From positions 1 to 37,147 of the forward strand of contig CANIWM010000061.1 of the NCBI GenBank assembly GCA_947471505.1: 37,147 nucleotides of DNA, given 5' to 3'. Positions 572 through 20,418 of this stretch are shown here, piece after piece. The notes under the pieces were generated by a model. It did no database searches. It was not told the DNA's origin and saw nothing but the letters and a program-made list of their open reading frames with translations. The position numbers and the translations under genes were made by a program. Numbering within the stretch: the first letter of the stretch is position 1; the number at the start of each line of letters is the position of its first letter. This stretch comes from Chthoniobacteraceae bacterium. Its GTDB lineage: Bacteria; Verrucomicrobiota; Verrucomicrobiia; Chthoniobacterales; Chthoniobacteraceae.

Positions 572-3559
572 TCAATAATACTGCCGGATGTATCCGTAGG
601 CCTTGTCGAAAAGTTCCTGGTCCGTGTGCAGCTTGTATTTGAGGAGCGCCTTTCGCAGGGCTTGCCGCACTTCGCGCTCGCCTTGCGCGGTGTCCTGCCA
701 GCCGTCGAAGCGCACCTGCTTCACGATGGCGTCGATCTCGGCGACGATGCGCTCGACGATGACGTGCGTGTTCTTGCTCTTCACCTCGTTGAATAGCTCG
801 GTGAGGGCGGAGAGCGCTTTGTCCTTCTCTTCCTCTGGCTCGACCTGCTTCTCGGCTTCCACGGTGTCCTTGGCGACTTCGAGGATGGCTTTCAGAAACT
901 CCAGGCTGTTCAGCAGTCCTTGCTCGTGCTTCTCGCGGATTTTCTCCAGGCGCTCGCCAAGTTCCGTGAATTTCGGATTGCCGGCGTGCTTCCGCAGCCG
1001 GGCGATGAGCTTGATCTCCACCTCCTTCGCCTTCTTGGCGGGGTTGCTATCCTTGAGAATACTTTCCAACACATCGGCATCGAGCACCAGCGCCTCCACG
1101 TCATCGCGCACGGCCTCCACGTGGACGTTCTCGTTGATCAGTTCGATGGTCTTCGCCCCCAGCCGGTGCCAGAGCATCCTGCCGTTCCCGCTCACGGGCT
1201 TCACGGATTCATAGACCTGCGTCAGCCACTTGTAATCCGTCGCGTAGGCGCCGAGGCACGGGTCGGGTGACAGCGCCTCCCAGATGGTGCCGAGCACGGT
1301 GTATTCACCGGCGAACTTGTCGCGCACCGCGTTGTTGGGCAGGTGCTGTTGCGCGGCCAACAGTCCCTCGTAGCCGCCGACCGTGCGATCCACGTTGGGG
1401 AAAAAGGCGAGGCACTTCTGCATCTGCCCCGGCAGGGCCTTGCGGAGTTCCTCGATGTTGCTCACCACCTGCTGCACAGCCTTCTCGTCGAAGTCCAGCG
1501 CCTGCGCCACGTCGTCGAAGATGCCGATGTAATCTACGATCAGCCCGTGCGTCTTCGACTGGCCGTAGGTGCGGTTCACGCGGCAGATCGCTTGAAGGAG
1601 GTTGTGATCCTTCATCGGCTTGTCGAGATACATCACCTGCAGGATCGGCGCGTCGAAGCCTGTGAGCAGCTTGCTCGTCACGATGACAAACTTCAGCGGG
1701 TCCGCCGGATCGCGGAAGCGGTCCAGCAGCTTTTCCTCGGCGTCCTTGTCGCGCATGTGGACGCTCCATGCGGGCGGGTCCTTCTGCGCACCGCTCATCA
1801 CGATGGCGCTGGCGTCGGGGCCGGTGATCTCGTCCATCACCGCCTTGTAGAGCACGCAGCACTCGCGATCGAAGCACACCACCTGCGCCTTGAATCCGTT
1901 TGGCTCCACCTTCGTCTGGAAATGTTGCACGATGTGCTCCACCACGGCCCGCACGCGCTCCGGGTTCTTCACGAGCACGGCCATCTTGGCGGCGCGTTTG
2001 GCGAGGTCATCGCGGTCCTGTTCGCTGAGGTCGCCGGTGATCTGCTTGTAGGCTTCATCGATCGCCGCCTTGTCGATCTTCAGCTTCACCGTCGGTGCTT
2101 CGAAGTGCAGCGGCAGTGTGGCCTTGTCGCGGATGCTGTCCTGGAAGGAATAGCGGCTCATGTAGCCCGCGCTGTCCTCGTCCGCGCCGAAGGCCCAGAA
2201 GGTGTTGCGGTCCGCCCGGTTGATCGGCGTGCCGGTCAGGCCAAAGAGGAAGGCATTGGGCAAAGCCTCGCGCATCTTGCGGCCAAGGTCGCCCTCCTGC
2301 GTGCGGTGTGCCTCGTCCACCATCACGATGATATTCTTGCGGTCGTTCAGCACTCCGCCGGCCTCGCCGAACTTGTGAATGGTCGTGATCAGCACCTTGC
2401 GCACGTCCTGCCCTAGCAGCTTTTGCAATTCCTTGCGGTCGCTCACGCCCACCATGTTCGCCACATCCGCAGCGTTGAAGGTGGCGCTGATCTGCGTGTC
2501 GAGGTCGATGCGGTCCACCACGATCAGCACCGTGGGATTGCCCAGCCTCGGGTGCATGCGCAGCTTCTGCGCGGCGAAGACCATCAGCAGGCTCTTGCCG
2601 CTGCCCTGGAAATGCCAGATGAGGCCCTTCTTCGGATACCCGGCCACCACGCGGTCCACGATCTTGTTCGTCGTCTCGTATTGCTGGTAGCGGCAGATCA
2701 CCTTGATGCGCCGGTGCTTCTTGTCCGTGGCGAAGAGGGTGAAGTTTTGCAGGATGTCCAGCACCACGCCGGGCCGCATCAGGCTCTCCACCGTGGCCCG
2801 CACATGACGCAGCTCGCCTTCATCCTGATTGTCGTCATCGCGCCACGGCCCCCAGAGATCGATGGGCATGCGGATGCTGCCGTAGCGCAGCAGCCGGCCT
2901 TCCGTGGCAAAGGAAAACACGTTCGGCACAAACATGGCCGGGATCTCCTTCTCGTAGATTTCGTTCACCTGATACGCCCCGTCGAACCACGTCACCGCGC
3001 TGCGCGTCGGCGTCTTCGCCTCGCCGATCACCAGCGGCAGACCGTTCACCAGAAAGACCACGTCGAAACGCTTCACCACGCTGCCCGTCTGGTAGGTCCA
3101 CTGGCTCGTCACCGTCAGCCGGTTCTTCGCGGGCTGGGTGAAATCCACCAGCCGCACCGCCACATGCTCGCCGTTCGGGCCAAAGGGCATGGTCTTCTCC
3201 CCGCGCAGCCAGGCCATGAAGTTCTCGTTCGCCCGCACCAGCCCGTCGCCCTGCACGGAGAGCAGGATGGCCCGCAGCGCATAGATCACCTCGTCCGCCC
3301 GGTCCGGCTGCGCGGCGATCTCGGGATTCAGGGCAATGAGCGCCTCCCGGACCCAGGGCTCCACCATCACCTCGCCCGGCTGACGCGGCAGCGCCGTCGC
3401 CGCCACGTAGGTCCAGCGCGAAGGCTTAAACTCCTCGCCCAACGAACCGCCCCAGCCCGAAGGCGGATCCTCGCGCAGCACGGAACTGCCCGCGCCGCTG
3501 CCGAGGCTGGTCGCGGCGTCGAGGATCATCTGCTCGACGGTGTTGGATTCGGTGAACAT
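572..3559 (-). CDS. hsdR: Type I restriction endonuclease subunit R (HsdR)
   Basis: This is the motor and nuclease subunit of a type I restriction-modification complex, which translocates and cuts DNA lacking the cognate methylation. The 995-residue length is normal for the family. The N-terminal PD-(D/E)xK nuclease shows Asp166 and the E-x-K pair Glu180/Lys182 (GEAKTP). The SF2 helicase follows, with Walker A QGSGKS around 318-323, DEAH at 415-418, TGTP at 442-445 and TGFDAP further on. A C-terminal helical region would contact HsdM/HsdS. It is the last gene of the operon; its ATG lies 4 nt after the hsdS stop, which suggests coupled translation. All motor and nuclease residues I can identify are intact, so I expect an active protein. 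Confidence 0.96.
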   Translation of the reverse strand: MFTESNTVEQMILDAATSLGSGAGSSVLREDPPSGWGGSLGEEFKPSRWTYVAATALPRQPGEVMVEPWVREALIALNPEIAAQPDRADEVIYALRAILLSVQGDGLVRANENFMAWLRGEKTMPFGPNGEHVAVRLVDFTQPAKNRLTVTSQWTYQTGSVVKRFDVVFLVNGLPLVIGEAKTPTRSAVTWFDGAYQVNEIYEKEIPAMFVPNVFSFATEGRLLRYGSIRMPIDLWGPWRDDDNQDEGELRHVRATVESLMRPGVVLDILQNFTLFATDKKHRRIKVICRYQQYETTNKIVDRVVAGYPKKGLIWHFQGSGKSLLMVFAAQKLRMHPRLGNPTVLIVVDRIDLDTQISATFNAADVANMVGVSDRKELQKLLGQDVRKVLITTIHKFGEAGGVLNDRKNIIVMVDEAHRTQEGDLGRKMREALPNAFLFGLTGTPINRADRNTFWAFGADEDSAGYMSRYSFQDSIRDKATLPLHFEAPTVKLKIDKAAIDEAYKQITGDLSEQDRDDLAKRAAKMAVLVKNPERVRAVVEHIVQHFQTKVEPNGFKAQVVCFDRECCVLYKAVMDEITGPDASAIVMSGAQKDPPAWSVHMRDKDAEEKLLDRFRDPADPLKFVIVTSKLLTGFDAPILQVMYLDKPMKDHNLLQAICRVNRTYGQSKTHGLIVDYIGIFDDVAQALDFDEKAVQQVVSNIEELRKALPGQMQKCLAFFPNVDRTVGGYEGLLAAQQHLPNNAVRDKFAGEYTVLGTIWEALSPDPCLGAYATDYKWLTQVYESVKPVSGNGRMLWHRLGAKTIELINENVHVEAVRDDVEALVLDADVLESILKDSNPAKKAKEVEIKLIARLRKHAGNPKFTELGERLEKIREKHEQGLLNSLEFLKAILEVAKDTVEAEKQVEPEEEKDKALSALTELFNEVKSKNTHVIVERIVAEIDAIVKQVRFDGWQDTAQGEREVRQALRKALLKYKLHTDQELFDKAYGYIRQYY

Positions 3560-3563
3560 GATC

Positions 3564-4820
3564 TTAATTGGTAAAGCTATTGCACAGAATAGACTGCAGT
3601 GCCCGCAGTGATCTGGCCGTATGATCTACTTCTCTTCGGCACTGGTTCATCCCGTTCATCACCGCCAAAATTCGCTCTTGTTCAGCGAGCGACGGAGTTG
3701 GGATTCGCAGGCCAGCGATAATTCCAACGGTCAATTGTTGCTGTGCGCTGCCATACGATAGCAATTTCACCTGTGCGGCCACAAAGGGAGTCGTCAAAAA
3801 CTGATGGAGAAACTCCGTCGAAAGTCGCTCGGAGTTATTTCTCAGGATTACCATCCCCGAGTTGATACGAACATGTTCCCATTCAATTTCGTCCCCGTAG
3901 AAGGCAATATTGCCTACCGTCCCCCTTGTGGTGAGGACGATATCTCCGCGTCGCAGTTTTCCCTTTCCCAACAATTCATCGCGCTCACGCGAAATGAACT
4001 TAGTTTCCTCAAAAGCGAAGCCTGCTTTGGTCACGTTTCCTGCGTTCAGGAACAAGCAATGACCGCTTAACGTATACTCGGAATCCTTCGGGTAGTTCTT
4101 GCCTCGATCTCCGTCGATTACTTGAACGCCAGCTCCACTCAATGTTTGCCACTCTGGATCGGTAGCTTTCGCGCTTTTTGAAAAATCCGCCGCTCGAAAA
4201 AGTGAATCGCCTTTGACCGAGTAAAATGATTTTAGCTCCACATCACACGCGGACCACTTGTCCAAAGCCTCATCCACCGCCCAGAGGATTTCCGCGATGC
4301 GGCGCTGCTGGTCGAGCGGCGGGAGGTCGAACTCGAAGCTGGCGAGGCTGCTCCAGTTAGTGCGCGGCGAGAGCGAACCGGCACTCGTCCCGACCGCGTG
4401 CTGAAAGAACCGCTCCGACAGGCAAAGGAACGGCAGCAATTCCGGCAGCAGGCGCTCGGTGTCCTTCGGCGCGAGCACATAGATGTCGCCCGACACCACC
4501 GCCTCGAACTCCGCCAGGGCCACCTTCCGCTGATAGGCCCGCCGTTTCCCGAACAACACCTGCCCCGGCCGGCACCGCCGCGTGAATGTCGTCCCATCCG
4601 CCACATTCCCCCAGCTCCGCACATGCAGCGACCCCGGCTCCAAATGCTCCATCGCCACAAACCGCTCCAACCCCGCCTCCGTCGGATCGCAGGTCTCGTT
4701 GCAGTTCTCTACCACGTCACCAAAGCGCACACGCTGCCAGTTGCTTCGATCAAACAACGGGAGGGAGGCCCATGCGGGGTTGGGCTTCAGGCTGGCGAGT
4801 GATGGAAGAGTTGCGGTCAT
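3564..4820 (-). CDS. hsdS: Type I restriction-modification specificity subunit S (HsdS)
   Basis: HsdS carries the DNA-recognition domains that tell the methylase and the restriction complex which bipartite site to bind. I chose the ATG at 4820 because it overlaps the stop of the upstream small gene as ATGA; that gives 418 residues, normal for the family. Layout: target recognition domain 1 at about 24-170, a conserved helical spacer (QQRRIAEILWAVDEAL) near 171-186, TRD2 at about 220-380, then a second helix (EQERILAVM). The TRD2 half (roughly 3600-4230) is visibly richer in A/T than the TRD1 half, as expected if TRD2 was exchanged by recombination. It is the only hsdS in the window although two hsdM genes are present. 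Confidence 0.93.
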   Translation of the reverse strand: MTATLPSLASLKPNPAWASLPLFDRSNWQRVRFGDVVENCNETCDPTEAGLERFVAMEHLEPGSLHVRSWGNVADGTTFTRRCRPGQVLFGKRRAYQRKVALAEFEAVVSGDIYVLAPKDTERLLPELLPFLCLSERFFQHAVGTSAGSLSPRTNWSSLASFEFDLPPLDQQRRIAEILWAVDEALDKWSACDVELKSFYSVKGDSLFRAADFSKSAKATDPEWQTLSGAGVQVIDGDRGKNYPKDSEYTLSGHCLFLNAGNVTKAGFAFEETKFISRERDELLGKGKLRRGDIVLTTRGTVGNIAFYGDEIEWEHVRINSGMVILRNNSERLSTEFLHQFLTTPFVAAQVKLLSYGSAQQQLTVGIIAGLRIPTPSLAEQERILAVMNGMNQCRREVDHTARSLRALQSILCNSFTN

Positions 4821-5164
4821 TCCCGTTCGGTCCTCCGGTTCGCGAGGTATGAAAGCCATCGTTCGCGAATTTCATGAAGCTCTTCGTCACACCCAAGAAA
4901 GCGCCGCATCGTTTCTGGAACCAAGGAGTCGGTCTGGTGCCCCGGCTGATTCGTTCCGTCATCGTGATACGCCAGCAATCCACCGAGGTGATAGCACGCT
5001 TCCGTTCCGAAATTCCAGTATGTCTCCATAATGGCTCCAGTGGTAACGCTCTCATCCGTCGCCGCAATCCGGTGCAACTCGCGCAACAAGAGTATGGCGA
5101 CTCGGCGGACAGTTTCGCCGTCGCAGCCACTCTCCTTCGCAACGATGTCAGCGATGTTGTTCAT
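4817..5164 (-). CDS. small unknown protein nested in the RM/AbiE operon
   Basis: This 115-residue protein belongs to no family I recognise. It starts with MNNIADIVAKES, continues as a helical segment rich in charged residues, and ends in a basic, Arg-rich tail (WLSYLANRRTERE). No membrane segment, signal peptide or nuclease motif is visible. The case for a real gene is architectural: its ATG overlaps the abiEii stop as ATGA and its TGA overlaps the hsdS ATG as ATGA, so it is locked into a coupled series. An accessory to the toxin-antitoxin pair or to the restriction complex is possible, but nothing in the sequence decides this. Confidence 0.7.
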   Translation of the reverse strand: MNNIADIVAKESGCDGETVRRVAILLLRELHRIAATDESVTTGAIMETYWNFGTEACYHLGGLLAYHDDGTNQPGHQTDSLVPETMRRFLGCDEELHEIRERWLSYLANRRTERE

Positions 5165-6165
5165 GCGGTGGCGTTAAACTTTGTTTCAAATTCGCCGACT
5201 ACACGAAGGATTTCATCGAAGTCTGGAGCATCGCCAAAGAACATTTCCTTTTGCATTTCGGCGTAGTCGCTTCGCCATGTCGCGAGTTGGTCTCCATGCG
5301 GGAGTAATTTCAAGGAACCGGGCTTCAACGTCGCGTAATCCATCCAGCCGTAGGTGAAAAACATCTGCCGGTGGGTGGCGACACGGTCAAACAAACCGAC
5401 GTCTGCAACGGCTTCGTCGGCAATGCCTTTGCGGATGAGGCTCCAGAGGTCGTAGTAGTGGCGAGCAAGCGGGCGTTTCCGAGGCTTATCGGCGGGTCGG
5501 AAAGTTTCTTCGTGGAGGAGCATGGCTTTGTCCCAAAAGGTGCGCCGAGCCGCCACGGTCTTGATGTGGAAGTCCGTTTTGCCGAGTTGCTCTGGAAATG
5601 CGTCGGAGAGATAAGGAGTGAGAGCGGGAGACTCGGACGGCTCGGTGTCTGAACGGGCTCCCATCTCGATTTTCACAATTTGCCGGACGTATTTCGGGGC
5701 ATCAGGGAAGACGGTCGGATATGTGAAAAGCAGGGTCTGCTGGTCTTTGTCTTCGGCGACTGAGGCAGGCAAAAGGGTCCATTTTGCGGTCTTTGGAAGG
5801 AGTCTCGATATGTGTTCCGTCAAAATCGGGAGAAGTTCCTGATGAATGCTTTCGCTGCATTTCTTGATAAGTTTATTCTGCCGATTGTTGCTCAACGTCT
5901 CCCCTCCGAATCCGAGAAATTCGCGTGAGATGACGACATCAATGTCCTCGGAAAAGCGTTCGATGAGCTTCCATGCCTTGGAGAGTGAAGTGCCGCCTTT
6001 GAATGCAAAGTGTTCGCCCCATTTTGGGAGTCCAAAAAGTTCGCGAAGCGTCCAGCAAACCCAGAAGTCTTTCTCGATACTGGTTGCAGGAAGGTTCAAT
6101 AGCGTCTGCGCTTGGTCACAGTAGAGGCGCTGGTCGTCGGGTGATAGGGCGATGTATGCGTCCAT
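5161..6165 (-). CDS. abiEii: AbiEii/AbiGii-type nucleotidyltransferase toxin
   Basis: This is the toxin of an AbiE-type (type IV) toxin-antitoxin system. The family is a DNA polymerase-beta-like nucleotidyltransferase that arrests growth, and members have been linked to abortive phage infection. The signature is clear in the 334 residues: FKGGTSLSKAW at about 55-65 and ERFSEDIDVV at about 69-78, which supply the GS motif and the paired metal-binding aspartates. Later blocks typical of the family are also present (TFWDKAMLLHEE, ARHYYDLWSL). It lies 3 nt after the antitoxin-like gene and overlaps the next small gene by ATGA. Toxicity and target are inferred from the family. The unusual point is its place inside a type I RM operon, between hsdM and hsdS. 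Confidence 0.9.
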   Translation of the reverse strand: MDAYIALSPDDQRLYCDQAQTLLNLPATSIEKDFWVCWTLRELFGLPKWGEHFAFKGGTSLSKAWKLIERFSEDIDVVISREFLGFGGETLSNNRQNKLIKKCSESIHQELLPILTEHISRLLPKTAKWTLLPASVAEDKDQQTLLFTYPTVFPDAPKYVRQIVKIEMGARSDTEPSESPALTPYLSDAFPEQLGKTDFHIKTVAARRTFWDKAMLLHEETFRPADKPRKRPLARHYYDLWSLIRKGIADEAVADVGLFDRVATHRQMFFTYGWMDYATLKPGSLKLLPHGDQLATWRSDYAEMQKEMFFGDAPDFDEILRVVGEFETKFNATA

Positions 6166-6168
6166 GGT

Positions 6169-6840
6169 TCAGCGATGCTCGGGGGCGGCGATCTTGCGCA
6201 TCACAGCAGCCACCCACGCAGGTGCGTGCTGGAGGTCTTTGATGAGCTGCTGCTTGTCGGCAGGATCAAGCCTTTGCCGAAGGCTGTCGACGAGTGAGTC
6301 GTCCGCATGACGCTGCCCGAGATGCCGCAACGCCTGGATGACCAGACCGCTCGTCCTGCCTGCTGTGGCCATATTTTTTGGCGTTGTCTGTTTTAACATG
6401 ATGGTCTGCTTTCCCAATACGACTTTTCGAGTGGGGCCGTCGGTGAGAAAGACGACCTTCATCGGCACTTGCTCGGACAATCCGAGGAGGTTCGCAGCGT
6501 ATCCGCCGGACGGCTGAAGTCTTGTGACATCGCGGCTCGAAATGGCGCGTGCGATGGCGTCGGCAGTGGGATTAAGAAAGCCGAGCACGGGGTGCTGGCG
6601 TGGGTAATCGTAAATTCCTCGCGCCAGTTGCCGAATCGTGCCACTGGCCTTGAGGCGACGCAATGCCACGTCAATTGCATCGCTGCTTCCAAGGTCTTGA
6701 AAATGCCGGGGAGTGAATACCCACCCCCTTTTATTTCCAAAAATCCGGCTACGAATCTTGTAGTCAATAGATTGCGTGTGTCTCGGCATATTCGTTTTGA
6801 CGGAAATAATGGGTTGTTTTTGCGTCAAAACAAGGCTCAT
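6169..6840 (-). CDS. abiEi: AbiEi-like antitoxin / transcriptional regulator
   Basis: Likely partner antitoxin of the nucleotidyltransferase downstream. The 223-residue protein has an N-terminal winged-helix segment (DYKIRSRIFGNKRGWVFTP, then a recognition-helix-like AIDVALRRLKASG and the wing LARGIYDYPR). A C-terminal antitoxin-like domain follows with GGYAANLLGLSEQVP and VFLTDGPTRKV, as in AbiEi/DUF6088-like proteins. AbiEi proteins neutralise the toxin and repress their own promoter. Here the gene has no promoter space of its own, because the ATG at 6840 overlaps the hsdM stop as ATGA. A second possible start, MPRHTQSID at 6789, would better match the usual N-terminus; neither start has a good ribosome binding site. 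Confidence 0.85.
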   Translation of the reverse strand: MSLVLTQKQPIISVKTNMPRHTQSIDYKIRSRIFGNKRGWVFTPRHFQDLGSSDAIDVALRRLKASGTIRQLARGIYDYPRQHPVLGFLNPTADAIARAISSRDVTRLQPSGGYAANLLGLSEQVPMKVVFLTDGPTRKVVLGKQTIMLKQTTPKNMATAGRTSGLVIQALRHLGQRHADDSLVDSLRQRLDPADKQQLIKDLQHAPAWVAAVMRKIAAPEHR

Positions 6841-8327
6841 TTTTGGGCAACGAGGAGGCTTTCGAGCGACTGCCGGACAGACTGCGAGCTTTCCAGCCAG
6901 CTCGCGAGCACCACTGGCAGGGCGGTGGTGGCCGACTCGGTAGCCGCATCAGTTTGCGCCTGGGTTTCGCCGCCCACATACAGCGGGATGCTCAGATTCC
7001 CCTCCTTCGCCCGTATTTCCTCAATCGGCACGACGCGGGTGAAGCCGGGTTCGTCTTTGAACTCCTGATAGGCACGGACGACGCGCTGGAGGTGCTCGTC
7101 GGTGAGGAAGCTCTGGGCGCGCTCGCGGGTGACTTCGTTCACCGCATTGATGAAGAGGATTTTCCCGCGCCGTGCCTTCGGTTTCTGCGTGCGGCAGACG
7201 ACGACGCAGGCCTCCATGGGCGAATTGTAGAAGAGGTTCGGGCCGAGGCCGAGGACGCACTCGATGAGGTCGGCCTCGATGAGTTTGCGGCGCATCTCCG
7301 CTTCCTCCTGCCGGAAGAGGACGCCGTGGGGCCAAAGGACGGCGCAGCGACCGGTCTTGGGCTTGAGGCTTTGCAGGATGTGCTGCTGAAAGGCATAGTC
7401 GGCGCGGCCCTGCGGCGGGACGCCGAAGACATTGCGCCCCCAGGGGTCGGCGGCGAAGGCTTCGCGGTTCCACTGCTTGATGGAGTAGGGCGGATTGGCC
7501 AGCACGACATCGAAGCGCTGGAGGCGGTCGCCTTCGACGAGCTTCGGCTCGGCGAGGGTGTCGCCGCGCTCGATGCGAAAGTCCTCGATGCCGTGGAGAA
7601 AGCAGTTCATCCGGGCGATGGAGGAGGTCATGAGGTTCCGCTCCTGGCCGTAGAGCTTCACATTCCGCCATTCCTTCTTCTGATTCCGCAGGTGGGCGAT
7701 GCAGGAGAGCAACATGCCGCCGGAGCCGCAGGTGGGATCATAGACGGACTCGCCGGGCTGCACGTCGAGCATCTCGGTCATGAGGTGGACGACGGTGCGG
7801 TTCGTGTAGAACTCGGCGGCGGTGTGGCCGGAGTCGTCGGCGAACTTCTTGATGAGATACTCGTAGCCCTGGCCCAATTCGTCCTCAGGCAGGTTGGCGA
7901 CGGTGAGTTCCAGCGTGGAGAAATGCTCGATGAGATCGCGCAGCATGGCGTCGGACAGGCGGTCCTTATTCGTCCACTGCGCATCGCCAAAGATGCCGAA
8001 GAGCTTGTCGGGATTGGCGGTCTCGATGGCACGCATGGCCTGCTGCAAGGCCCGGCCCACATCCCGGCTGACCTTCCGAATCTCGCGCCAATGCGCGTCC
8101 GCCGGCACCTGGAACCGGTGGTTTTCCGGAAAAAGTGCAAAATCCTGATCCCCGCCCGACTCCCGCAGCGCAGTGACGGTCTCCTCATCAAAGACATCGC
8201 ACAGCCGCTTGAAGAACAGCAGCGGGAAGATGAACTGCTTGTAGTCGCCCGCATCAATCGTCCCCCGCAGGAGCACGGCGGCGCCCCAGAGGTAGGATTC
8301 GAGTTGCTGTTGGGTGATGCGGGTCAT
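6837..8327 (-). CDS. hsdM: Type I restriction-modification methyltransferase subunit M (HsdM), copy 1
   Basis: This is the adenine-N6 methyltransferase subunit of a type I system. The 496 residues show the N-terminal HsdM helical domain (LESYLWGAAVLLRG; FPLLFFKRLCDVFDEE), the SAM-binding motif DPTCGSGG at 197-204 and the catalytic NPPY at 278-281. Both are intact. It follows the DAC-like gene by 4 nt and overlaps the antitoxin start by ATGA. Among the two hsdM genes it lies closer to hsdS and hsdR and is the probable core subunit. The AbiE pair and the small gene separate it from hsdS, whereas ordinary operons keep M and S adjacent. Confidence 0.95.
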   Translation of the reverse strand: MTRITQQQLESYLWGAAVLLRGTIDAGDYKQFIFPLLFFKRLCDVFDEETVTALRESGGDQDFALFPENHRFQVPADAHWREIRKVSRDVGRALQQAMRAIETANPDKLFGIFGDAQWTNKDRLSDAMLRDLIEHFSTLELTVANLPEDELGQGYEYLIKKFADDSGHTAAEFYTNRTVVHLMTEMLDVQPGESVYDPTCGSGGMLLSCIAHLRNQKKEWRNVKLYGQERNLMTSSIARMNCFLHGIEDFRIERGDTLAEPKLVEGDRLQRFDVVLANPPYSIKQWNREAFAADPWGRNVFGVPPQGRADYAFQQHILQSLKPKTGRCAVLWPHGVLFRQEEAEMRRKLIEADLIECVLGLGPNLFYNSPMEACVVVCRTQKPKARRGKILFINAVNEVTRERAQSFLTDEHLQRVVRAYQEFKDEPGFTRVVPIEEIRAKEGNLSIPLYVGGETQAQTDAATESATTALPVVLASWLESSQSVRQSLESLLVAQK

Positions 8328-8331
8328 GGGG

Positions 8332-9579
8332 TCATCCGACTGAAGCCATTTCTACGACTTTGCTTTCTTTTTTGGCGAAGACCCGAATCGCTCCGTCACT
8401 GGAAATCTTGATGGCCAGGCCATAGCTTGCGAGCGCCTTAGTTGCAGCCAACCTTCCTCCACCCGAACTTCCCGCAGGAACTTTCACGATTGCTCCAGCC
8501 GCTAGGACCTCACCTTTGTAGCTCAGCACTGTTGCGCCATCCATGGCGAGAATCTCGGCACGAAGGCGACGATCTAGTTCTGGGAACGGCTTCCCAATTA
8601 TCTTTCTCAAACAATTGGCTTTGATTCCACTGCCTACAGCAATCAAGTCGCCCTTCGCGACGACATCAGAATCGCGGAAATCATCTGCCTGAGTTCTTCG
8701 AACTACCGCAATGCAGCCGCCGCTCCTTGCGAATGAAACATCCAGCGAAGACTCATAAATTGCTGCACAAACATCAGGCGGTATCGCTTTTTCTAAAGCT
8801 ATTCTCTTGATGACCGCTTCATGCGTGAAGTGATGCCAAGATCCGCGGCGTTTGCAGAAGACCAAGACCTTGTTCTTAAATACCAAAATCTCCCCGTTTC
8901 GGTTCAGCCCAATTCCAATCCGGTTGCCATCAGTCCATTCCGCAATCCGTGCGAATCGCATCGGCGCAAAAAGCCCAGCGATCTTGGGTGCCTCGGTTGG
9001 CAGAGGCTCATACGAATTGATGAAGCCGTCGGAACTGACGGTCAGGAACGTTTCCAATCCTCCTGCGAGCACGGTTCCAAAGTCCTCACGATAGACATCC
9101 CCGAGTGCGACACCCTTAGAGACGAGCAATGAAGGTTCAATCCCGAGAGCTGCCGAAATTCTACGGCCTTCGTAGGTTTGTTCAGCCCAGGATTCATACT
9201 GCATAATGACCTCGGCAATCGTCGCCCGGAGAGCCTTCTGACTTTCATCTCCGCCAGCCAATGCCCTCGCGATCACCCGCCGCATCGTCGCCCTAATCAG
9301 ATCGGGAAGTGAAGTCTTGTCCCAGAGCGGCTCTAAAGTGCGGAGAACGAGAAGAAAAGACCTCACGACCTCGGTGTCGGCCTCTTCGAAAGGTTGGCTT
9401 CGCGTCAATGTCAGACGATAATCAGCGTCCTTCGATGGGCGAAAGGCGATCTTGCATGGATCAACGTAGGCAACCAATTTTTTGCTGCTTTTTGGGGCAG
9501 TTTCCTCGCCCAAGTCAGACCCCGTAAAGAGAGGCTGAATGAAATGCTTCGTGATGTCCTCAAATTTTGCCTTGTCCAT
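8332..9579 (-). CDS. DisA_N/diadenylate-cyclase-like (DAC-fold) putative nucleotide sensor
   Basis: This 415-residue protein is soluble, with no signal or membrane segment. Its last 70 residues look like the end of a DAC (diadenylate cyclase) domain: DGATVLSYKGEVLAAGAIV from residue 347, then SSGGGRLAATKAL around 372-384, then a closing strand pair. In true cyclases the DGA motif is followed by G-T-R-H-R. Here DGA is kept, but the RHR triad reads R-L-A (Arg376 kept, His and second Arg lost). That favours a binding or sensing role over synthesis. The preceding stretch (GEILVFKNKVLVFCKRRGSWHHF) resembles the non-catalytic DAC-related sensor families described in predicted nucleotide-signalling conflict systems. 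It is wedged between two hsdM genes, with gaps of 30 and 4 nt. The family assignment is by eye. Confidence 0.6.
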   Translation of the reverse strand: MDKAKFEDITKHFIQPLFTGSDLGEETAPKSSKKLVAYVDPCKIAFRPSKDADYRLTLTRSQPFEEADTEVVRSFLLVLRTLEPLWDKTSLPDLIRATMRRVIARALAGGDESQKALRATIAEVIMQYESWAEQTYEGRRISAALGIEPSLLVSKGVALGDVYREDFGTVLAGGLETFLTVSSDGFINSYEPLPTEAPKIAGLFAPMRFARIAEWTDGNRIGIGLNRNGEILVFKNKVLVFCKRRGSWHHFTHEAVIKRIALEKAIPPDVCAAIYESSLDVSFARSGGCIAVVRRTQADDFRDSDVVAKGDLIAVGSGIKANCLRKIIGKPFPELDRRLRAEILAMDGATVLSYKGEVLAAGAIVKVPAGSSGGGRLAATKALASYGLAIKISSDGAIRVFAKKESKVVEMASVG

Positions 9580-9609: not shown

Positions 9610-11124
9610 TCAGGCGCCGGGACTGGTGAGAAGCCCTTCGCGCTTGAGGATTCCCACCAGCCTCTCCTCCGCCGCAAACGCCGCCTCCGCGCTCTCACGC
9701 AGCCGCTTCATCGCCTCCTCCACGGTGAGCACCTCAGCGGTGACCTTCGGCTCGACGTAGCGCGGGATGTTGAGGTTGTGGTCGTTGGCGGCGATCTCGT
9801 CGAGGGTGACGACGCGGGCGATGCCTTCGACATCGGTGTAGTCGCGGACCCAGCCGTGGATGCGCTCGACGTGCTCGGGAAGCAGTTCGTTTTGGGCACG
9901 ACCGGTTTTGAACTCCTTCGAGGCATCGACGATCAGCACCTTGTTCTTCCGGTCCTTCGCCTTCTTCTGCCGGAAGACGAGGATGCAGGCGGCGAGGCCG
10001 GTGCCGTAGAAGAGATTCGGCCCGAGGCCGATGACCGCCTCCAGCAGGTCCATGCCGAGGAGTTTCTTCCGAATCTCGCCCTCCTTGCCCATGCGGAACA
10101 GGGCTCCGTGCGGGAGGACGACGGCCATGCGCCCGGTCTTGGGGGCCATGGATTTGATCATGTGCTGCACCCAGGCGAAGTCGCCGCTCTTGGCGGGCGG
10201 CATGCCGGCGAAGTTTCGGCCATAGGGATCGCTGGACCAGACTTCGTCGCCCCATTTCTCCAGCGAGAAGGGCGGATTGGCGATGACGCAGTCGAAGGTG
10301 GCGAGGTTGTCGCCGGAGAAGAAGGCGGGGCTGCGCAGGGTGTCGCCCCGCACGATTTGGAAATCCGCCGCGCCATGCAGGAAGAGGTTCATGCGAGCAA
10401 TGGCGGAGGTGGTGAGGTTTTTCTCCTGACCGTAAAGCTTGCCCCAGAGCGTGCGGTCGTCGCCGTGGGCTTCTTTCACGTGCTGGATGGATTCAATGAG
10501 CATGCCGCCGGTGCCGCAGGCAGGGTCGTAGAGTGTCTCGCGTTCGCGGGGATCGAGGATGTTCACCATGAGCCGCACAACGGAGCGCGGGGTGTAGAAC
10601 TCGCCCGCCTTCTTGTTCGTGGCGTCGGCGAACTTCTTGATGAGATACTCATACGACTGTCCCAGCACGTCTGCCTTGGCCACGGTATTCCCCAGCGAGA
10701 GCCGCGAAAAATGCTCGATGAGATTCTTGAGCAGCGCATCCGAGAGCCGGTCCTTATTGGTCCACTGCGCATCGCCAAAGATGCCGTAAAGCGTGTGCGG
10801 ATTCGCCTGCTCGATCCCGCGCAGCGCCGTCTGAAGCGCCTGCCCGACATTCGTCGCAACCTCCCGCACATCCCGCCAGTGGCAGTCCTCGGGAATCTGG
10901 AAGCCGTAATTCTCCGGGAACAGCGCGGCTTCCTCATCGCCATCGAACTGCTTCAGCGCCGCCGTGTGCTCCTCGTCATGCACATCCGAGATGCGTTTGA
11001 AAAACAGCAGCGGGAAGACATACGACTTGAAGTCCGCCGCATCCACCGGCCCGCGCAGAATGTTCGCCGCTTCCCACAGGTGGGATTCGAGCTGGCTGAG
11101 TGTCACCGCGCCGGATGCCGTCAT
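9610..11124 (-). CDS. hsdM: Type I restriction-modification methyltransferase subunit M (HsdM), copy 2
   Basis: A second, distinct HsdM, clearly homologous to copy 1 but diverged throughout. The SAM motif reads DPACGTGG at 200-207 and the catalytic motif NPPF at 283-286. I placed the start at the ATG at 11124 (MTASGAVTLSQLESHLWEAAN) because this is where HsdM homology begins. The frame stays open for another 825 bases upstream, but that stretch is a phosphoesterase remnant, not HsdM. The 504-residue product appears complete. It has no hsdS or hsdR of its own nearby. It may be what remains of another RM locus, or it may work with the DAC-like protein encoded 30 nt downstream. The promoter is unclear. 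Confidence 0.92.
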   Translation of the reverse strand: MTASGAVTLSQLESHLWEAANILRGPVDAADFKSYVFPLLFFKRISDVHDEEHTAALKQFDGDEEAALFPENYGFQIPEDCHWRDVREVATNVGQALQTALRGIEQANPHTLYGIFGDAQWTNKDRLSDALLKNLIEHFSRLSLGNTVAKADVLGQSYEYLIKKFADATNKKAGEFYTPRSVVRLMVNILDPRERETLYDPACGTGGMLIESIQHVKEAHGDDRTLWGKLYGQEKNLTTSAIARMNLFLHGAADFQIVRGDTLRSPAFFSGDNLATFDCVIANPPFSLEKWGDEVWSSDPYGRNFAGMPPAKSGDFAWVQHMIKSMAPKTGRMAVVLPHGALFRMGKEGEIRKKLLGMDLLEAVIGLGPNLFYGTGLAACILVFRQKKAKDRKNKVLIVDASKEFKTGRAQNELLPEHVERIHGWVRDYTDVEGIARVVTLDEIAANDHNLNIPRYVEPKVTAEVLTVEEAMKRLRESAEAAFAAEERLVGILKREGLLTSPGA

Positions 11125-11309
11125 GGAAGTGTGCGTGCAGAGACCCGACTCTGGAGAAAACGGACTTGATAGCTGGTTGCGAGCAGTTGGAACACTTCTG
11201 GACACTAAAGAACACGCGCAGATGAAGGCAACTGGGAATCGAACCGCTAACCAAAGTTTTTGCGGCAGATTGCGAATCCAACCATGCGAGGTCGCCATCG
11301 GCAACCATG

Positions 11310-11925
11310 GCGTGCTCCGTTCCACCCGCACGAATTTCCCGCCATCGACCGCTGCTTCTCCGCACCAGCGATAGGCGGCGAGATTTCCGCCCAGCTTTCC
11401 GGCGACGCTGTAATCGAGGCACACTGCGTTCTCTGCCAGCGGAACCGGTGGCTTTGGCGGCAGCCAGTGGTGGCCAAACGCCACGACGGGCTCTTCCTCG
11501 CCGTAATACGGAACTCGCGCGAGGATCTCGGCGGGAACAGCAACCTCGGGCGGTTCCGAGCTCGGCGGAAAGACCAGTTTCCGATACGTCACGCCCGCGC
11601 GGTGCCCAGGGCTGAACCACCGTGCGCGGATGTCCTCATTGGCGTGTCCTTCCTTGTCGATGAACTCCACGCCTTCGGGCAGCAGCGCCTCCGGACCCAC
11701 AAGCAGCGCCACGACCGCCGCATGGTCCGGCGTTCCCTCCGTTCCCGATTCGTGGAAGAATGAACCGTCTGCAAAGAGCCGTCCGCCGATTTTTGCCACT
11801 GCATCGCGGCACCACGCAGCATGAACGATCCGGATGCCGCAGAGGTCGAGATAAAGCGGCACTCTGCGAAACCAATCGAGACATCTCATCCATTCGTCGG
11901 CGTGGAATGTCCTGCGTGCAAATTC
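11310..11925 (-). pseudogene. 5'-truncated metallophosphoesterase remnant
   Basis: The open frame reading into hsdM2 encodes the C-terminal part of a calcineurin-like phosphoesterase. It has WMRCLDWFRRVPLYLDLCGI, VHAAW, FGHHWLPPKPP and CLDYSVAGKLGGNLAAYRW, which align along their length with the intact gene at 20415-21356 (WDGYLAWFATLPLWLDLGGL, VHANW, FGHYWLPFEG, CLDYSVAKDGPLTAYRW). About the first 120 residues are missing, including all N-terminal metal-binding motifs (GDIHGH, GDFIDRG, GNHEY). The remnant begins almost exactly at the zorD stop codon, so the break coincides with the Zorya 3' edge. The two copies are diverged, so they are paralogues and not a recent duplication. No activity is expected. 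Confidence 0.82.
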
Positions 11926-14900
11926 AGCCGACGCGCTCTCGACTGGCATCCTTTGCTAAAAGCATTGCCAACGAAATGTTGGCCTTGCTGAGCTCGCAGG
12001 AAAGCCACGCACGGTCATGCACGGATACTCCACATATTCGCGCGGCTTGTTGCGTGCGTTTGCTGAGGCGGCGGGCGGTCGTGTGAAGGCAACGCTGGCT
12101 GAAGGAGACGGCCAACGAATTTTCGTAAAACGGCCTCGCTCCCTCAACTTCTCGCACGGCCACTTCGCTATCCAATTCATCGCGGGAAGTCGCCTTGCAC
12201 TGGATGAGTAAGTTTTCCCGCTGCGTGCCCCAGCCAAGCACCACGACATCGCACCCGTGATCGCTTCCGCCGGGCGTGAGAATCACCCGCTCCGCATCGC
12301 GTTCGTAAAGCACCGCGATGAGCGCCTCGAACAATCTCCACGACAGACGCAGCGCAGCGGTGAGGTCGAGAGTGGCGGATGGGACAGTGGCGGCGATTGG
12401 ACCGAGGACGCTCTCAATGAGTTCTGAATCTGTGACAGACTGCGGCGGAACAAGGCCGAGTGCGCCTTGGAGTCCACGCTTCTTTTCAATCAGCCCGTGC
12501 AGCACGTCATCAAATGATCGGCGCTCTGAGTTTGGATGCCGCGCGGCGGGTAGATACACTGTAACAGCGCGGGTTTGGCCGATTCGATAGGCGCGGTCGG
12601 TAGCCTGATCTTCCTTCGCGGGATTCCAATGGCGTTCTAGGTGAATGACGTGATTTGCCGCCACGATGTTTAGCCCGGCACCAGCGGCAATTGGGGAAAG
12701 AATACAGATGCCGAATCCTTCCCGTTTGCTGAAGTGCTCGATCAAACCGAGCCGCGTTTCCTCGGGGTCGTGACGCGAAGTGGCTTTCGTATCGCCATTG
12801 ATAATCGGCACGTTGATCCCGTGAATCAGCGCAAGGTGACGTGCGAGCGCTTCCTGGAGTTTTTTCTGCACGCAGAAGACGAGCACCTTTTCCCCGAGCG
12901 GCTTGATCTCATCCAGTCGCCGCAGCAGCCACGTCAATTTCCCGGAACGCTGAAGCATCGCGCGAGAATCGCGGGGGTTATTGGCCGTTCCAATGGTGCC
13001 GCCAGCAAGCAAGTCGGGGTGCAAGGAGACTTGGCGGAGTTGCCAGAGCGCGGCGAGTTGCCGGTTCTGGCGCACGGGGTTGCTCTCGGCGGCGGGGTCT
13101 TCGCCTTGCGCACTGGCTACGATGGCGTCGTAGGCGATCACTTGCTCGGCAGTCAACTCGACGGGGACTGCTTGATTGTGTCCGGTCTTCTTGGGCAACC
13201 CAGTCAGCTCCTCTTCCTTCATCCGTCGAAGCATCAACTCGCCAACGTGGGCACGCAGCCGCAACCCGATTTCACCCATGTTGTCAGGCTCCCGGATCAT
13301 CGGCGTAATCCAGTTCTTGCGAAACTCCACGAACGAGCCGAGTGGGCCGGGTTCTGAGGTATCCAGAATAGACCAGAAATCGCCGAGATGGTTTTCGACC
13401 GGAGTGCCAGTGAGCGTCAGCCGGAACAGCGCCTTGAGCGATTTGGCTGCGATGGTCTGGAGAGCGTTCGGGTTTTTGATGTTTTGCGCCTCATCGAAAA
13501 TCGCCGCGCTCCACTCTGCCTTGGCAAAAGAGAAGCGGTAATCACGAAGCGTTTGATACGTGGTCAGCACACAGCTTCCCGGAAGGTCGAGACTGCGTTC
13601 CGTTCCATCGCCAAAGCCGAGTCCGTATTCCAAAACCTCTCCCGGCACCGCTTTGTCGCGGCCACCGGGACGCCGCCGCACGCGATTCAACTCTCCATCG
13701 GTTTGCGCGATCAAAACGCGGCTGAATACCGGGTTTCCCTCGCCGTAGCTTTTCGTGATTTCGGCCTTCCAATTTTCCAGCAAGGAAAGCGGGGCGACAA
13801 TGAGCACGGCGGGCGGTTCTCCGCCGACCGTCGCACGCCAGAGATCGAACCATTCGCGCAAGAAAATGAGCGTGCTGAAGGTTTTGCCGAGTCCCATATC
13901 ATCCGCCAACAATGCACCTGCGCCGAGGCCGGTTATTTCATCGGGACTTTCGCGGCGGCGCATGGCACGCCGGGCGTGGCGGAGCAGCCAGAGCACCGCC
14001 GCCTGCTGGTGCAGCATGGGTTCACGCGCATAACGCAGAAAGTTCGGCTCCGCGCAGTCCTGATCCATTTCAGGGTCGCGCCAGCCGAAGGTGAGATCGG
14101 TATCGTTGGCGAGAATCAGGGGAACCATCGGCCCTGAGTCATCCGCATCATCGTCGCTCGGTTGTGGGTCGCCACTTCCACCCGGCTCTCCTTTTCCTTC
14201 ATCCTCGCCCGGAGGCTTTTTGTCCGGCTGCGGCTTTTTGCCAAACCAGTCTTCGCCTTCCTCCCACATCGAACCCGCATAGACCGCCTTCCAAACTCCA
14301 ATCCCCGTGACGCGCGGGCTGAACTCCGTCTCGATGTCCGGGAAGACGTGTTCTGCCATCCACGAAGCCGGGTCTTTTTGAAATGCCTCCACCGCCGCCT
14401 TTGGCACCCGTCCGCGCTCGACGAGTGCGCGGGCCTGCCGGGTTTGCGTGGGATCGAGGAGGATGATGGTCTTCCCCACGCGAAACACCGCTCGCGGCGC
14501 ATCGCCCGACATCTGGCCGAGGCGTTTCTCCACCTCATCAACACTCAAAGCCGGAAAGTCGCCGCTAACCATCGGGCGCAAAATGAGATCGCCGCTACCG
14601 CCTTCGGGCCGGGCATCCACGCTGAGTTCGCGCGCATTGGCGATGAGCGTTTCGTCGAACGCTGCGAGGTCAATGTGGCAACCCGCCTCACGCGCTTCAC
14701 GGAGCGTTGCAAGCAAGCTCAGGTTTGCCAGTTCGTCGCGCTCGCCTGCATCGCGCCAAGTCTGGAAAGCGAGCAATGCCGCGTATTGCGCGGCTGTGGG
14801 GAGGTACCTTTCTTTGCCAACCTCAAGGATCGGCCCGCGTAGCTTCCACTCCCAGCGCACTTCCGCGCCCGGATCGACCAAGCCCAACCGAATGGTAAAG

Positions 14901-15217
14901 CTCGGCGACTGCGGCACAGAGCCAGTCTGGAGACGCATCCCTCCCGCCCACGGCGAAGGGAGCAGAAAACCTTCGCGCGTCTCTCTATCGAGCCGCACGG
15001 CGTCTGCCGCCGCGATGAAAATCCCCGCATCCACTTCTCGAACCTCCGCTTGCCCGCACTCTGCGAGCATTTGCATCCGAATCAGCCCAAGTTGCCCGTC
15101 TTCATCCGCACTGCCTTGCTTGGCCTTTGCGTAGTGCTTGGCGTTGGAAAAGCGGATCGCGAGGCCGTCGGCGTTGGCAGACCAAGTGAAAGTGGGCGTG
15201 GATGAGAATAGTGGCAT
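11924..15217 (-). CDS. zorD: Zorya type I effector ZorD (SNF2 helicase with Mrr-like nuclease)
   Basis: ZorD is the DNA-acting effector of type I Zorya. I placed the start at the ATG at 15217, 4 nt after the zorC stop (1097 residues); a longer frame exists but would overlap zorC by 83 nt. Layout: an N-terminal region of about 325 residues, an acidic, Pro/Gly-rich linker at about 327-363, an SF2/SNF2 motor with Walker A DDMGLGKT 439-446, DEAQ 575-578, TGTP 603-606 and RIGQTRA 878-884, then a C-terminal restriction-endonuclease-like domain with Asp990 (HGCD) and the Q-x-K motif QCK 1006-1008. All key residues are present. The 3' end abuts the phosphoesterase remnant, which marks the island boundary. 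Confidence 0.94.
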   Translation of the reverse strand: MPLFSSTPTFTWSANADGLAIRFSNAKHYAKAKQGSADEDGQLGLIRMQMLAECGQAEVREVDAGIFIAAADAVRLDRETREGFLLPSPWAGGMRLQTGSVPQSPSFTIRLGLVDPGAEVRWEWKLRGPILEVGKERYLPTAAQYAALLAFQTWRDAGERDELANLSLLATLREAREAGCHIDLAAFDETLIANARELSVDARPEGGSGDLILRPMVSGDFPALSVDEVEKRLGQMSGDAPRAVFRVGKTIILLDPTQTRQARALVERGRVPKAAVEAFQKDPASWMAEHVFPDIETEFSPRVTGIGVWKAVYAGSMWEEGEDWFGKKPQPDKKPPGEDEGKGEPGGSGDPQPSDDDADDSGPMVPLILANDTDLTFGWRDPEMDQDCAEPNFLRYAREPMLHQQAAVLWLLRHARRAMRRRESPDEITGLGAGALLADDMGLGKTFSTLIFLREWFDLWRATVGGEPPAVLIVAPLSLLENWKAEITKSYGEGNPVFSRVLIAQTDGELNRVRRRPGGRDKAVPGEVLEYGLGFGDGTERSLDLPGSCVLTTYQTLRDYRFSFAKAEWSAAIFDEAQNIKNPNALQTIAAKSLKALFRLTLTGTPVENHLGDFWSILDTSEPGPLGSFVEFRKNWITPMIREPDNMGEIGLRLRAHVGELMLRRMKEEELTGLPKKTGHNQAVPVELTAEQVIAYDAIVASAQGEDPAAESNPVRQNRQLAALWQLRQVSLHPDLLAGGTIGTANNPRDSRAMLQRSGKLTWLLRRLDEIKPLGEKVLVFCVQKKLQEALARHLALIHGINVPIINGDTKATSRHDPEETRLGLIEHFSKREGFGICILSPIAAGAGLNIVAANHVIHLERHWNPAKEDQATDRAYRIGQTRAVTVYLPAARHPNSERRSFDDVLHGLIEKKRGLQGALGLVPPQSVTDSELIESVLGPIAATVPSATLDLTAALRLSWRLFEALIAVLYERDAERVILTPGGSDHGCDVVVLGWGTQRENLLIQCKATSRDELDSEVAVREVEGARPFYENSLAVSFSQRCLHTTARRLSKRTQQAARICGVSVHDRAWLSCELSKANISLAMLLAKDASRERVG

Positions 15218-15221
15218 GGTG

Positions 15222-16649
15222 CTATATGCGAACGTCGTCCCACTCGAAGTGGAAGCGGCTGCGGAGCTGGTCAAAAAAGCGATTGATCCATTTACCGCCT
15301 TCATCGTGCCGCAGAAACACTGGGCATTCTCTGGGACTGATGCGCAGCTCCCTATCTTGATAAGTCACTTTAGGACGCTCCCAAAAGCCGTGAATTGGAA
15401 AATCTTGGTGGAACATCCGAAGACCAAAGCTGTGCGTTCCCTCGATGACGTAAATATCGTCCACGCACCGTAAGCAGATCATGCTCGTTTCATCGGTCGT
15501 TGCGCTCAGATGCGCGACAGTCCACACGTCGCGATACTGTCGGTCGAGGTGCTGGTATGCCGACCAGTTCAGTGCGAGCCGTGCTGACTGGATTTTGCCC
15601 GCATCATAGAGCCCAAGAAGAAAGCGGGAGCGAAGAGCGAATTGAGGCTCCTTGTCGGTTCCTTGCAGGCTCCGTCTGAGAAACTCGATAAAGAAGCGCA
15701 GCGTCAGCCCAGTGATACCCTGTTGCGCAAGCCTGAGTTCATCGTCCGTTGCCCAACCCCACCACTTCGCTCCTTCGGCGGTTGCCCGACCGTGGCGAGG
15801 ATCACAGCCTAGCCTCACGATCCAATTTGACCAGTCCCCGCTCCATTTGCGTGCTCCCTCTTTGGCGACACGTTGAACCATGATTTGCAAAGCAGCCGCG
15901 CCCATCAGTTGCGAAGCAGACGCTCGCTTTTCCCTGATCGAGTCCGATGCGATCTCCGCCAAAGCCGGAATCTCCTCTCCGAATGCACAGTTTTTGAGCG
16001 CGTTCAGCAGGAAAAGCCGCCGCAGGGATTCCATGAACCGTCCCTCACTGGGAACCGCAAACCGTTCGATTAGAGACGGCAGCGGCTCATTCTTTTTAGC
16101 CGCACGGACAACATTTTGATCCCCCTCAGTGCTAAATAAGACTTTTCGATAGAACCGCCATTGGAAGATCGGCCCTTCACCTTCGGGCTCTATACTCTCG
16201 AATGCCTCAACCAGACGCGCACACAGACGGGACAAGCCAGAAAAAGGCAGATGCTCGAAGTGCGTGAAAAATAGCAGGACAGCCTGCTTGCGGAGCCTGC
16301 CATTCCACTCGCGACCGTTTTCGCCAAGCACAGAACTGGCGTGGGATTCGTCGAATTGCGGAAGCCATGATGCGTCCGGCTGCGCGGCATATTGAATGTA
16401 GAGGCTAAGGAGTAGTCGTGTGCGCCCGTCCACGTCCGTGGCCTGCTCGAAGGTGACGCCTTCCCCGGGGTTCATCAGCCGCCGCTTCATCATGTCTTTG
16501 CGATTCTCATACACGCGCGAGTTCGTATCGCCTGCAGCGTTTGCATAATTGCGGTCGGTAATGACCTCCAATTTCCGAACAGCAGAGACCAGTTGGATAG
16601 CGTGGATACGGGGAAAGGGCATCTCTTTGAGGTCAAGGTGCATGTTCAT
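15222..16649 (-). CDS. zorC: Zorya protein ZorC (EH-signature domain)
   Basis: ZorC is the EH-signature component of type I Zorya. It binds DNA and is thought to act with ZorD after the membrane motor senses invasion. The 475-residue protein is helical and soluble. The two residues that name the domain are visible near the C-terminus: Glu403 in VIEGTHSFGLR and His448 in FLRHDEGGKWINRFF. The ATG at 16649 overlaps the end of zorB by 17 nt; an internal ATG six bases later (MHLDLKEMPF) is equally plausible. It ends with TAG 4 nt before zorD. Its position between zorB and zorD is the canonical type I gene order. Confidence 0.93.
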   Translation of the reverse strand: MNMHLDLKEMPFPRIHAIQLVSAVRKLEVITDRNYANAAGDTNSRVYENRKDMMKRRLMNPGEGVTFEQATDVDGRTRLLLSLYIQYAAQPDASWLPQFDESHASSVLGENGREWNGRLRKQAVLLFFTHFEHLPFSGLSRLCARLVEAFESIEPEGEGPIFQWRFYRKVLFSTEGDQNVVRAAKKNEPLPSLIERFAVPSEGRFMESLRRLFLLNALKNCAFGEEIPALAEIASDSIREKRASASQLMGAAALQIMVQRVAKEGARKWSGDWSNWIVRLGCDPRHGRATAEGAKWWGWATDDELRLAQQGITGLTLRFFIEFLRRSLQGTDKEPQFALRSRFLLGLYDAGKIQSARLALNWSAYQHLDRQYRDVWTVAHLSATTDETSMICLRCVDDIYVIEGTHSFGLRMFHQDFPIHGFWERPKVTYQDRELRISPRECPVFLRHDEGGKWINRFFDQLRSRFHFEWDDVRI

Positions 16650-17553: not shown

Positions 17554-17562
17554 AGGTGCGTG

Positions 17563-19827: not shown

Positions 19828-20418
19828 TCACACAGTCGGACAATTCCAACGGCCAAGATTCGGAATGGTAAACGTCAGGGCGAACTCTCTGAATCGCTGC
19901 GGGGCATGAGTGTCCCCGATGTCCGGCTTTTGGGACTCCATCCACATCGCTAGCTTGATGACCATCTCGTGGCAGACGACGAGGATGGCTTGCTCCGGCA
20001 GACTTCGCAGTTTTTCCAACGCCACCTGCACCCTCGCGGTAAAGTCGTGAAACGACTCGGCTCCCGGCCCGTCGTTTGTCTCGGGGGTTGCAGTGTTCCA
20101 ATAGGACTCCACCAAGGGACGCCGCTCTGCGGCGGAACTTGTGCCGCAGCGGGCGGGGCTCAGATAGGTGAATTCTTGCACCGCCCATTCCTCAACGAAG
20201 GCGCTTGCGAACCGTCTTCTGAACGGGACCGCTGTTTCTTGAGCTCGTCGGAAGGGCGAGACGACAATCAGTTCCGGCGGCGGACCGTCGTAGTCGCGGG
20301 CGACGTCATCCGCAGCCGTTCTGCCAGCTTCAGTGAGCGGGATGGCACCGGGGTCGGAACTCGGCAGACCGGCATTCGCGGCACTTTCCGCGTGTCTCAG
20401 AAACGTGATGCTCTTCAC
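19828..20418 (-). CDS. histidine phosphatase family protein (phosphoglycerate-mutase-like)
   Basis: A branch-1 histidine phosphatase of 196 residues. The catalytic block is FLRHAES (Arg8, His9), with a second arginine in SPFRRAQET (Arg57) and the late histidine in VVCHEMV (His150), so the active site is complete. I chose the GTG at 20418 because it overlaps the stop of the upstream phosphoesterase gene as GTGA and is preceded by a strong GAGGGAGGGC ribosome binding site, one of the few clear ones in the window. The substrate cannot be told from the sequence; members act on sugar phosphates, nucleotides or phosphoproteins. With the upstream gene it forms a two-phosphatase operon. Confidence 0.85.
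   Translation of the reverse strand: MKSITFLRHAESAANAGLPSSDPGAIPLTEAGRTAADDVARDYDGPPPELIVVSPFRRAQETAVPFRRRFASAFVEEWAVQEFTYLSPARCGTSSAAERRPLVESYWNTATPETNDGPGAESFHDFTARVQVALEKLRSLPEQAILVVCHEMVIKLAMWMESQKPDIGDTHAPQRFREFALTFTIPNLGRWNCPTV

Follow-up and report, generated by a model that had tools for sequence, protein, structure and literature searches.

We propose, with a probability of roughly 0.6, that P0001, a 415-residue protein encoded without internal stops in the 37,147-nucleotide stretch of Chthoniobacteraceae DNA analysed here (the window), belongs to an unmodelled family with two diadenylate cyclase (DAC) domains, that this family is kin to the DACN-DAC proteins of nucleotide-centred conflict systems, and that it acts as a nucleotide-signalling partner in defence. 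We place good confidence in the putative role as a defence partner, and we are evenly divided on whether the predicted activity is catalysis over pure sensing. If the proposal is true, restriction-modification and DISARM, which act on DNA, are tied to the nucleotide-signalling side of bacterial immunity, and P0001 may be a portable nucleotide-signalling part of that immunity. Neither NCBIfam nor PADLOC holds a model for P0001.

The P0001 gene lies tightly packed within a type I restriction island (Table 1). HsdR, HsdS, AbiEii, the AbiEi-like protein, HsdM2, P0001 and HsdM1 are all encoded on the minus strand and constitute a type I restriction operon, which agrees with the earlier note, in which the gene had been placed in such an operon. 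The two HsdM proteins are 52% identical over 465 residues, and a genome search found P0001 as a single copy in its own genome. The AbiEi-like/AbiEii pair (5161-6840) sits between hsdM2 and hsdS and overlaps hsdM2 by 4 bp. Directly upstream of hsdM1 lies a Zorya operon (11924-19548) with a ZorA-like gene (17563-19548), ZorB, ZorC with EH_Signature, and a ZorD helicase-Mrr. The hsdM1 frame itself starts, ahead of HsdM_N, with a metallophosphatase-like remnant that is 40% identical over 191 columns to a phosphatase-like protein at 20415-21356; this pair brackets the Zorya genes.

Table 1. Features of P0001 and of the surrounding operon, in window coordinates.
Feature	Position	Strand	Basis or remark
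P0001, tandem-DAC-like protein	8332..9579	-	ORF and translation; AlphaFold2 mean pLDDT 93.2, pTM 0.92
Residues 1-108: N-terminal helix, strands, further helices	9256..9579	-	Weak GAF-like resemblance over 1-90 (Z <=5.1)
First predicted DAC-fold domain, residues 109-250, without DGA/RHR	8830..9255	-	Fold of the N-terminal half; Foldseek; VIA
YEG motif (136-138)	9166..9174	-	84/84 aligned
Second (C-terminal) predicted DAC-fold domain, residues 255-415	8335..8817	-	Structure comparison, Z 9.9-13.5; profile comparison
DGA motif, D347-G348-A349	8533..8541	-	84/84 aligned
GSSGGGRLAA (370-379), equivalent of the G-T-R-H-R loop	8443..8472	-	R376 at 8452-8454
hsdM1	9610..11949	-	30 bp upstream of P0001; HsdM_N from residue 287
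hsdM2	6837..8327	-	Starts 4 bp downstream of P0001
AbiEi-like (DUF6088) antitoxin	6169..6840	-	
AbiEii nucleotidyltransferase toxin	5161..6165	-	
hsdS	3564..4859	-	
hsdR	572..3559	-	

The C-terminus of P0001 is, by its predicted structure, a DAC fold, as the earlier note had claimed. Compared with the PDB by Foldseek, the AlphaFold2 model (built on 80 sequences; Table 1) has DACs at ranks 1-17, with a best E of 4.3e-4 and three at E<=1e-3. Similarly, the top 40 of the 50 VIA-align matches listed are DACs (Z 9.9-13.5), nearly all aligned over residues ~255-415, and the remaining 10 are GAF-type domains at Z <=4.9 over residues 1-90. One entry in both lists, 2fb5, is 'hypothetical' by title and is presumably a DAC as well. 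At the sequence level, the Pfam DAC model matches P0001 with an E of 0.013 (15.5 bits, below the curated cut-off of 27 bits). Two of five relatives scanned give sub-cut-off matches (E 9.5e-6 and 7.6e-4; best score 25.6 bits) and the other three, P0003, P0004 and P0005, give no match; among seven further relatives, L016 (2.9e-5), L104 (6.8e-5) and L018 (0.0088) match below the cut-off, with no match in L082, L080, L088b and L013. No DAC occurs among the PDB matches found with P0001 by sequence. Profile comparison with seven canonical DACs yields an E of 0.0025 at a probability of 11.8% for the P0001 profile, and likewise 0.0025 for the C-terminal domain alone, for which the best of 20 column-permuted controls reaches 0.099. 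The same profile alignment sets R376 on the first R of RHR, L377 on the H and A378 on the second R, and so recovers the reduction of the triad to R-L-A that had been read from the sequence.

P0001 is probably a tandem DAC, a reading based on predicted structure that sequence comparison does not confirm for domain 1. Folded without the remainder, the N-terminal 262 residues (pLDDT 91.9) have DACs at Foldseek ranks 1-14, 13 of them at E<=1e-3, and the top 40 VIA entries, mostly over residues 109-250, score Z 6.9-9.0, the next rows standing at <=5.1; the rmsd is ~3.5-4.4 for most entries and 6.5 for the first. The predicted DAC fold of this half is not borrowed from the C-terminal domain, because that domain is absent from the model. 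Domain 1 holds W131..TYEG (136-138) and W248. Its sequence gives an E of 0.63 against canonical DACs and 0.051, out of register, against domain 2, and the Pfam DAC match of L018 falls on domain 1 (residues 193-256), a weak hint of DAC identity there. Positions 173-174 read [DN]G in most relatives (D in 58 and N in 21 of 84) and GG in P0001; no conserved counterpart of RHR was found in domain 1 across the 84 aligned sequences. Taken together, this suggests that a DAC fold can also serve as the 'sensor' half in proteins of this kind, and the two halves of P0001 may form an internal dimer.

The residue pattern of the family was read from an alignment of 84 sequences, namely P0001 and 83 relatives that are 25-38% identical to it, with two rows excluded: L076, whose frame runs open to the end of its contig, and L088b, the second copy in Brachybacterium. 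The DGA and RHR blocks described earlier are present in P0001, where DGATVL...GEVLAAGA spans residues 347-363 and SSGGGRLAATKAL residues 371-383. D347, G348 and A349 are invariant (84/84), as are E342, D280, Y136, E137, G138 and W248, and R376 is kept in 83/84, the exception being P0003, which is truncated in that region. The second position of the triad is H in a single sequence (L058, 1/84) and the third is never R (A in 79, S in 4, a gap in 1). Because the Asp and the Arg stay fixed at 25-38% identity, this is, as far as the alignment goes, a fixed pattern of the family's own and not decay; D347, R376, E342, D280 and YEG are candidate residues for function. L088b, outside the alignment, reads TVEG where the others have TYEG.

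This pattern bears directly on the claim of the earlier note that the domain is degenerate and that ligand binding is likelier than synthesis. In its full form, such a reading makes P0001 a non-catalytic sensor whose DAC fold binds a host ligand or the product of a partner cyclase and thereby switches defence allosterically, which we regard as a serious possibility that stays short of even odds. The replacement of two of the three RHR residues in nearly all members would suit a sensor, as would an N-terminal half with a DAC fold and no DGA/RHR; yet the Asp of DGA is invariant, though a pure sensor could dispense with it, and the pattern around it is fixed. Furthermore, DACNG/DACNH-DAC proteins show the same loss, keeping only the first Arg of RHR (R-Y/L-N in 6/6), so that the step from degeneracy to ligand binding is not supported.

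These DACNG-DACNH-DAC proteins share a genomic slot with the P0001 family. In L018, genes for a patatin, a CD-NTase and a P0001-family protein are consecutive and co-oriented, with gaps of 9 and 31 bp (longest frames). When this cassette served as a DNA query against 5,426 E. coli genomes, 18 of them matched in a patatin gene; the P0001-family gene alone had no match in E. coli DNA. At the one E. coli locus examined, the patatin and the CD-NTase are 58% and 48% identical to those of L018 and are joined by a third gene, whose product carries Pfam DACNG and DACNH and is related to canonical DACs in its C-terminal part (profile E 1.5e-5). The trio is kept in Citrobacter and Gluconobacter relatives, with the Gluconobacter third gene on the other strand; of three other such loci, only that of Priestia has a nucleotidyltransferase nearby. 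PDLC00788 is the best PADLOC model for the CD-NTases of E. coli, Gluconobacter, L012 and L018. L012 and L018 have a P0001-family member in this slot, where E. coli and Gluconobacter have DACNG-DACNH-DAC. Behind the E. coli patatin/CD-NTase/DACNG-DACNH-DAC locus comes a second CBASS, with a phospholipase and DncV (L109, 4929-10548).

By profile, the two families are homologous in their C-terminal domains (E 1.4e-5, probability 80%; for the domains alone 5.2e-7, with 0.015 as the best of 20 permuted controls), which upholds, at that level, the kinship with predicted nucleotide-centred conflict systems that the earlier note had raised; blastp between the proteins of the two families gives an E of 0.33. 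The N-terminal domain aligns with DACNH in register over 88 columns at E 0.066, the best of 20 permuted controls being 0.073. No DACN Pfam model, and so neither DACNG nor DACNH, matches P0001 at E<=1, and L013 matches DACNK at E 0.13. DACN domains, which are Pfam models found N-terminal to a DAC-like part, are not degenerate DACs; DACNH is absent from the genome of the window and occurs in 1/288 genomes of its phylum, and five of eight plasmid matches of the DACNG-DACNH-DAC family are recorded as 'diadenylate cyclase'. Like the E. coli protein WP_001593457.1, which is encoded beside CBASS, P0001 joins an N-terminal part to a C-terminal DAC-like domain with DG[AT] and a lone first Arg, and the patatin and nucleotidyltransferase partners seen in E. 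coli, Citrobacter and Gluconobacter are of the same kind as those found with the P0001 family; unlike it, P0001 has a different N-terminal sequence and its family also has members inside type I RM and DISARM operons. At least two protein families thus seem to serve as the DAC partner of CBASS, and clear homology between them is confined to the C-terminal domain.

A published defence system offers a further line of evidence. According to the main text of PMC13092281, the E. coli phospholipase-cGAS-DAC system DS-2 loses defence on mutation of either of two predicted catalytic DAC residues, and CBASS adjoins 15 of 30 DAC homologues in DefensePredictor. As given there, the gene content of DS-2 (phospholipase, cGAS, DAC) equals that of L012 and L018, whereas our matching E. 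coli locus has other N-terminal domains (DACNG, DACNH) and the DAC of the other family; we infer that DS-2 is the kind of locus described above. The need for predicted catalytic residues in a system of such gene content (PMC13092281, main text) argues against a pure sensor and against the earlier preference for ligand binding over synthesis, but the CBASS loci already possess a CD-NTase of their own, which speaks for a sensor. The terms 'type I restriction' and 'DISARM' are absent from the main text of PMC13092281, and DAC terms from that of PMC7159879; we found no link of DAC with restriction or DISARM in the literature that we searched, which does not prove that none is in print.

Canonical DACs (CdaA, DisA, CdaM and others; PF02457) share with P0001 the DAC fold, DGA and the first Arg of RHR, and their Ser-Glu corresponds to a conserved Ser-x-Asp close to the end of the P0001-family proteins; P0001 differs from them in its R-L-A in place of RHR, its two DAC folds per chain and its score below the Pfam cut-off. 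Given the fold and the DGA, P0001 might be a divergent but ordinary c-di-AMP synthase or sensor tied to the c-di-AMP of the host, and the genome of the window indeed encodes a canonical CdaA-like protein and a 7TM-7TMR_HD (PgpH-type) match. We nevertheless consider this quite improbable: a canonical DAC is present in 12 of 25 host genomes, that of the window included, and in none of the 7 alphaproteobacterial hosts tested or of the 8 small Bacillota genomes. PF06153 was found in 0/22 genomes and PF07698 in 2/22, and for most of the hosts tested these models lend no support to c-di-AMP signalling. With a canonical DAC absent from all seven alphaproteobacterial hosts tested, the general ligand is unlikely to be ordinary host c-di-AMP. 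Six sigma-linked Firmicute genomes tested (0.9-1.4 Mb) have no canonical DAC, and the CdaA-like protein of the window's genome (L090, 439-1323) reads HDGG as against the DGA of canonical DACs.

The strongest fact against a purely defensive role comes from the wider family. A profile-led scan of GTDB representatives gave 84 relatives, of which 80 were kept, and plasmid and phage-labelled records supplied 4 more; context counts cover these 84 loci, with the window and L104 added for the tree-group counts. Firmicutes by record title make up 44 of the 84 loci, in each of which the member lies directly behind a co-oriented sigma-factor gene (one Pfam-checked, the rest assigned by BLAST cluster); smc is nearby in 38 of these loci, and ftsY likewise in 38. 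This Firmicute majority is apparently inherited vertically and lies outside known defence; its loci (L013 and 43 others) all have the member immediately behind a gene of the sigma-70 family. Such neighbours, together with three loci in a focal-addB-addA arrangement, could point to a housekeeping or DNA-repair protein, active in genome maintenance or sporulation, that is captured incidentally in defence islands, which we think unlikely in view of the defence contexts and patchy occurrence described below. In the three loci just mentioned (L071, L072, L073), addB-like and addA-like genes directly follow the member, the first of them without a gap or with a 1-bp overlap (neighbours Pfam-checked in L073).

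In a quick, midpoint-rooted tree, the window protein falls in a group of 15 rows (96% SH-aLRT), 9 of which lie in or beside defence systems, 3 with type I RM and 6 with CBASS; in the other 6 rows the neighbours inspected, some of them scanned, included none recognised as a defence gene. On the question raised in the earlier note of whether the family sits mostly outside defence, the answer is therefore split: it does in the 44 Firmicute loci and does not in the group of the window protein, where the RM and CBASS rows speak against a housekeeping role. CBASS genes accompany L002, L012, L018, L019, L022 and L043 (the last assigned through gene clusters that it shares with L019 and L022), that is, 6 of the 11 alphaproteobacterial members. 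An unbroken same-strand run with the cyclase occurs in L018 only; strands differ in three of the remaining five, and an opposite-strand gene intervenes in two. The type I RM rows are the window, L028 (hsdS-focal-hsdR) and L104 (hsdM-hsdS-ORF-focal-hsdR); the frame between hsdS and the DAC-like gene of L104 (10973-12049) gave no Pfam match over the 270 aa scanned. A distant relative, L080, stands at the end of a DISARM operon, after DrmMI, DrmA, DrmB and DrmC.

A single origin of all type I RM cases was considered and rejected: the hsdR products of L104 and L028 are 79% identical, and that of the window is 27-31% identical to them, so that, by this comparison, L028 and L104 represent one RM lineage and the window a separate one. 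The RM label is unclustered on the tree (3 changes against a shuffled mean of 2.8), a result compatible with exchange and also with chance. L028 nests among CBASS-side genes in the tree, and the gene thus seems to have moved between system types. Occurrence is patchy, which also speaks against housekeeping: in the phylum of the window 1 of 387 genomes has the gene, namely the window's own; a profile search among 57 relatives gave 1 further true match; a class draw for Rhizobium found 2 in 385 genomes, the seed and L104 (inside its type I RM operon); and a class draw for Brachybacterium found 1 in 394, the seed itself.

Within our preferred reading of P0001 as a two-domain, nucleotide-signalling defence partner, the C-terminal pocket would bind a metal-nucleotide, and the two DAC halves may pack like the subunits of a DAC dimer to leave one asymmetric site, whose activity could be gated by the N-terminal half. 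The trigger might be infection, or damaged or unmodified DNA dealt with by the neighbouring system; P0001 would then make, or be switched by, a nucleotide signal distinct from the ordinary c-di-AMP of the host, and would thereby drive or license the partner system. A more specific and tentative version, which we hold to be on the doubtful side, is a single-chain asymmetric cyclase in which residues 109-250, lacking the catalytic motifs, and residues 255-415, with DGA and one Arg, would form an internal dimer with one working site and a product other than c-di-AMP, as a module passed between type I restriction, CBASS and DISARM. If this version is true, DNA-cutting systems gain a second-messenger arm, as in CBASS.

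Further searches yielded 26 pattern matches in a single-protein scan of genome contigs, none of them confirmed, and 19 and 7 in viral contigs, likewise with none confirmed. A further candidate, L008 (G425, profile match E 9e-4), overlaps a frame that by eye resembles the Res protein of type III restriction and was dismissed as spurious. In Brachybacterium (L088, 9104-13341), two divergent members of 738 and 670 aa (longest frame) lie tail to tail, and this pair adjoins an AAA_11/AAA_12 helicase.
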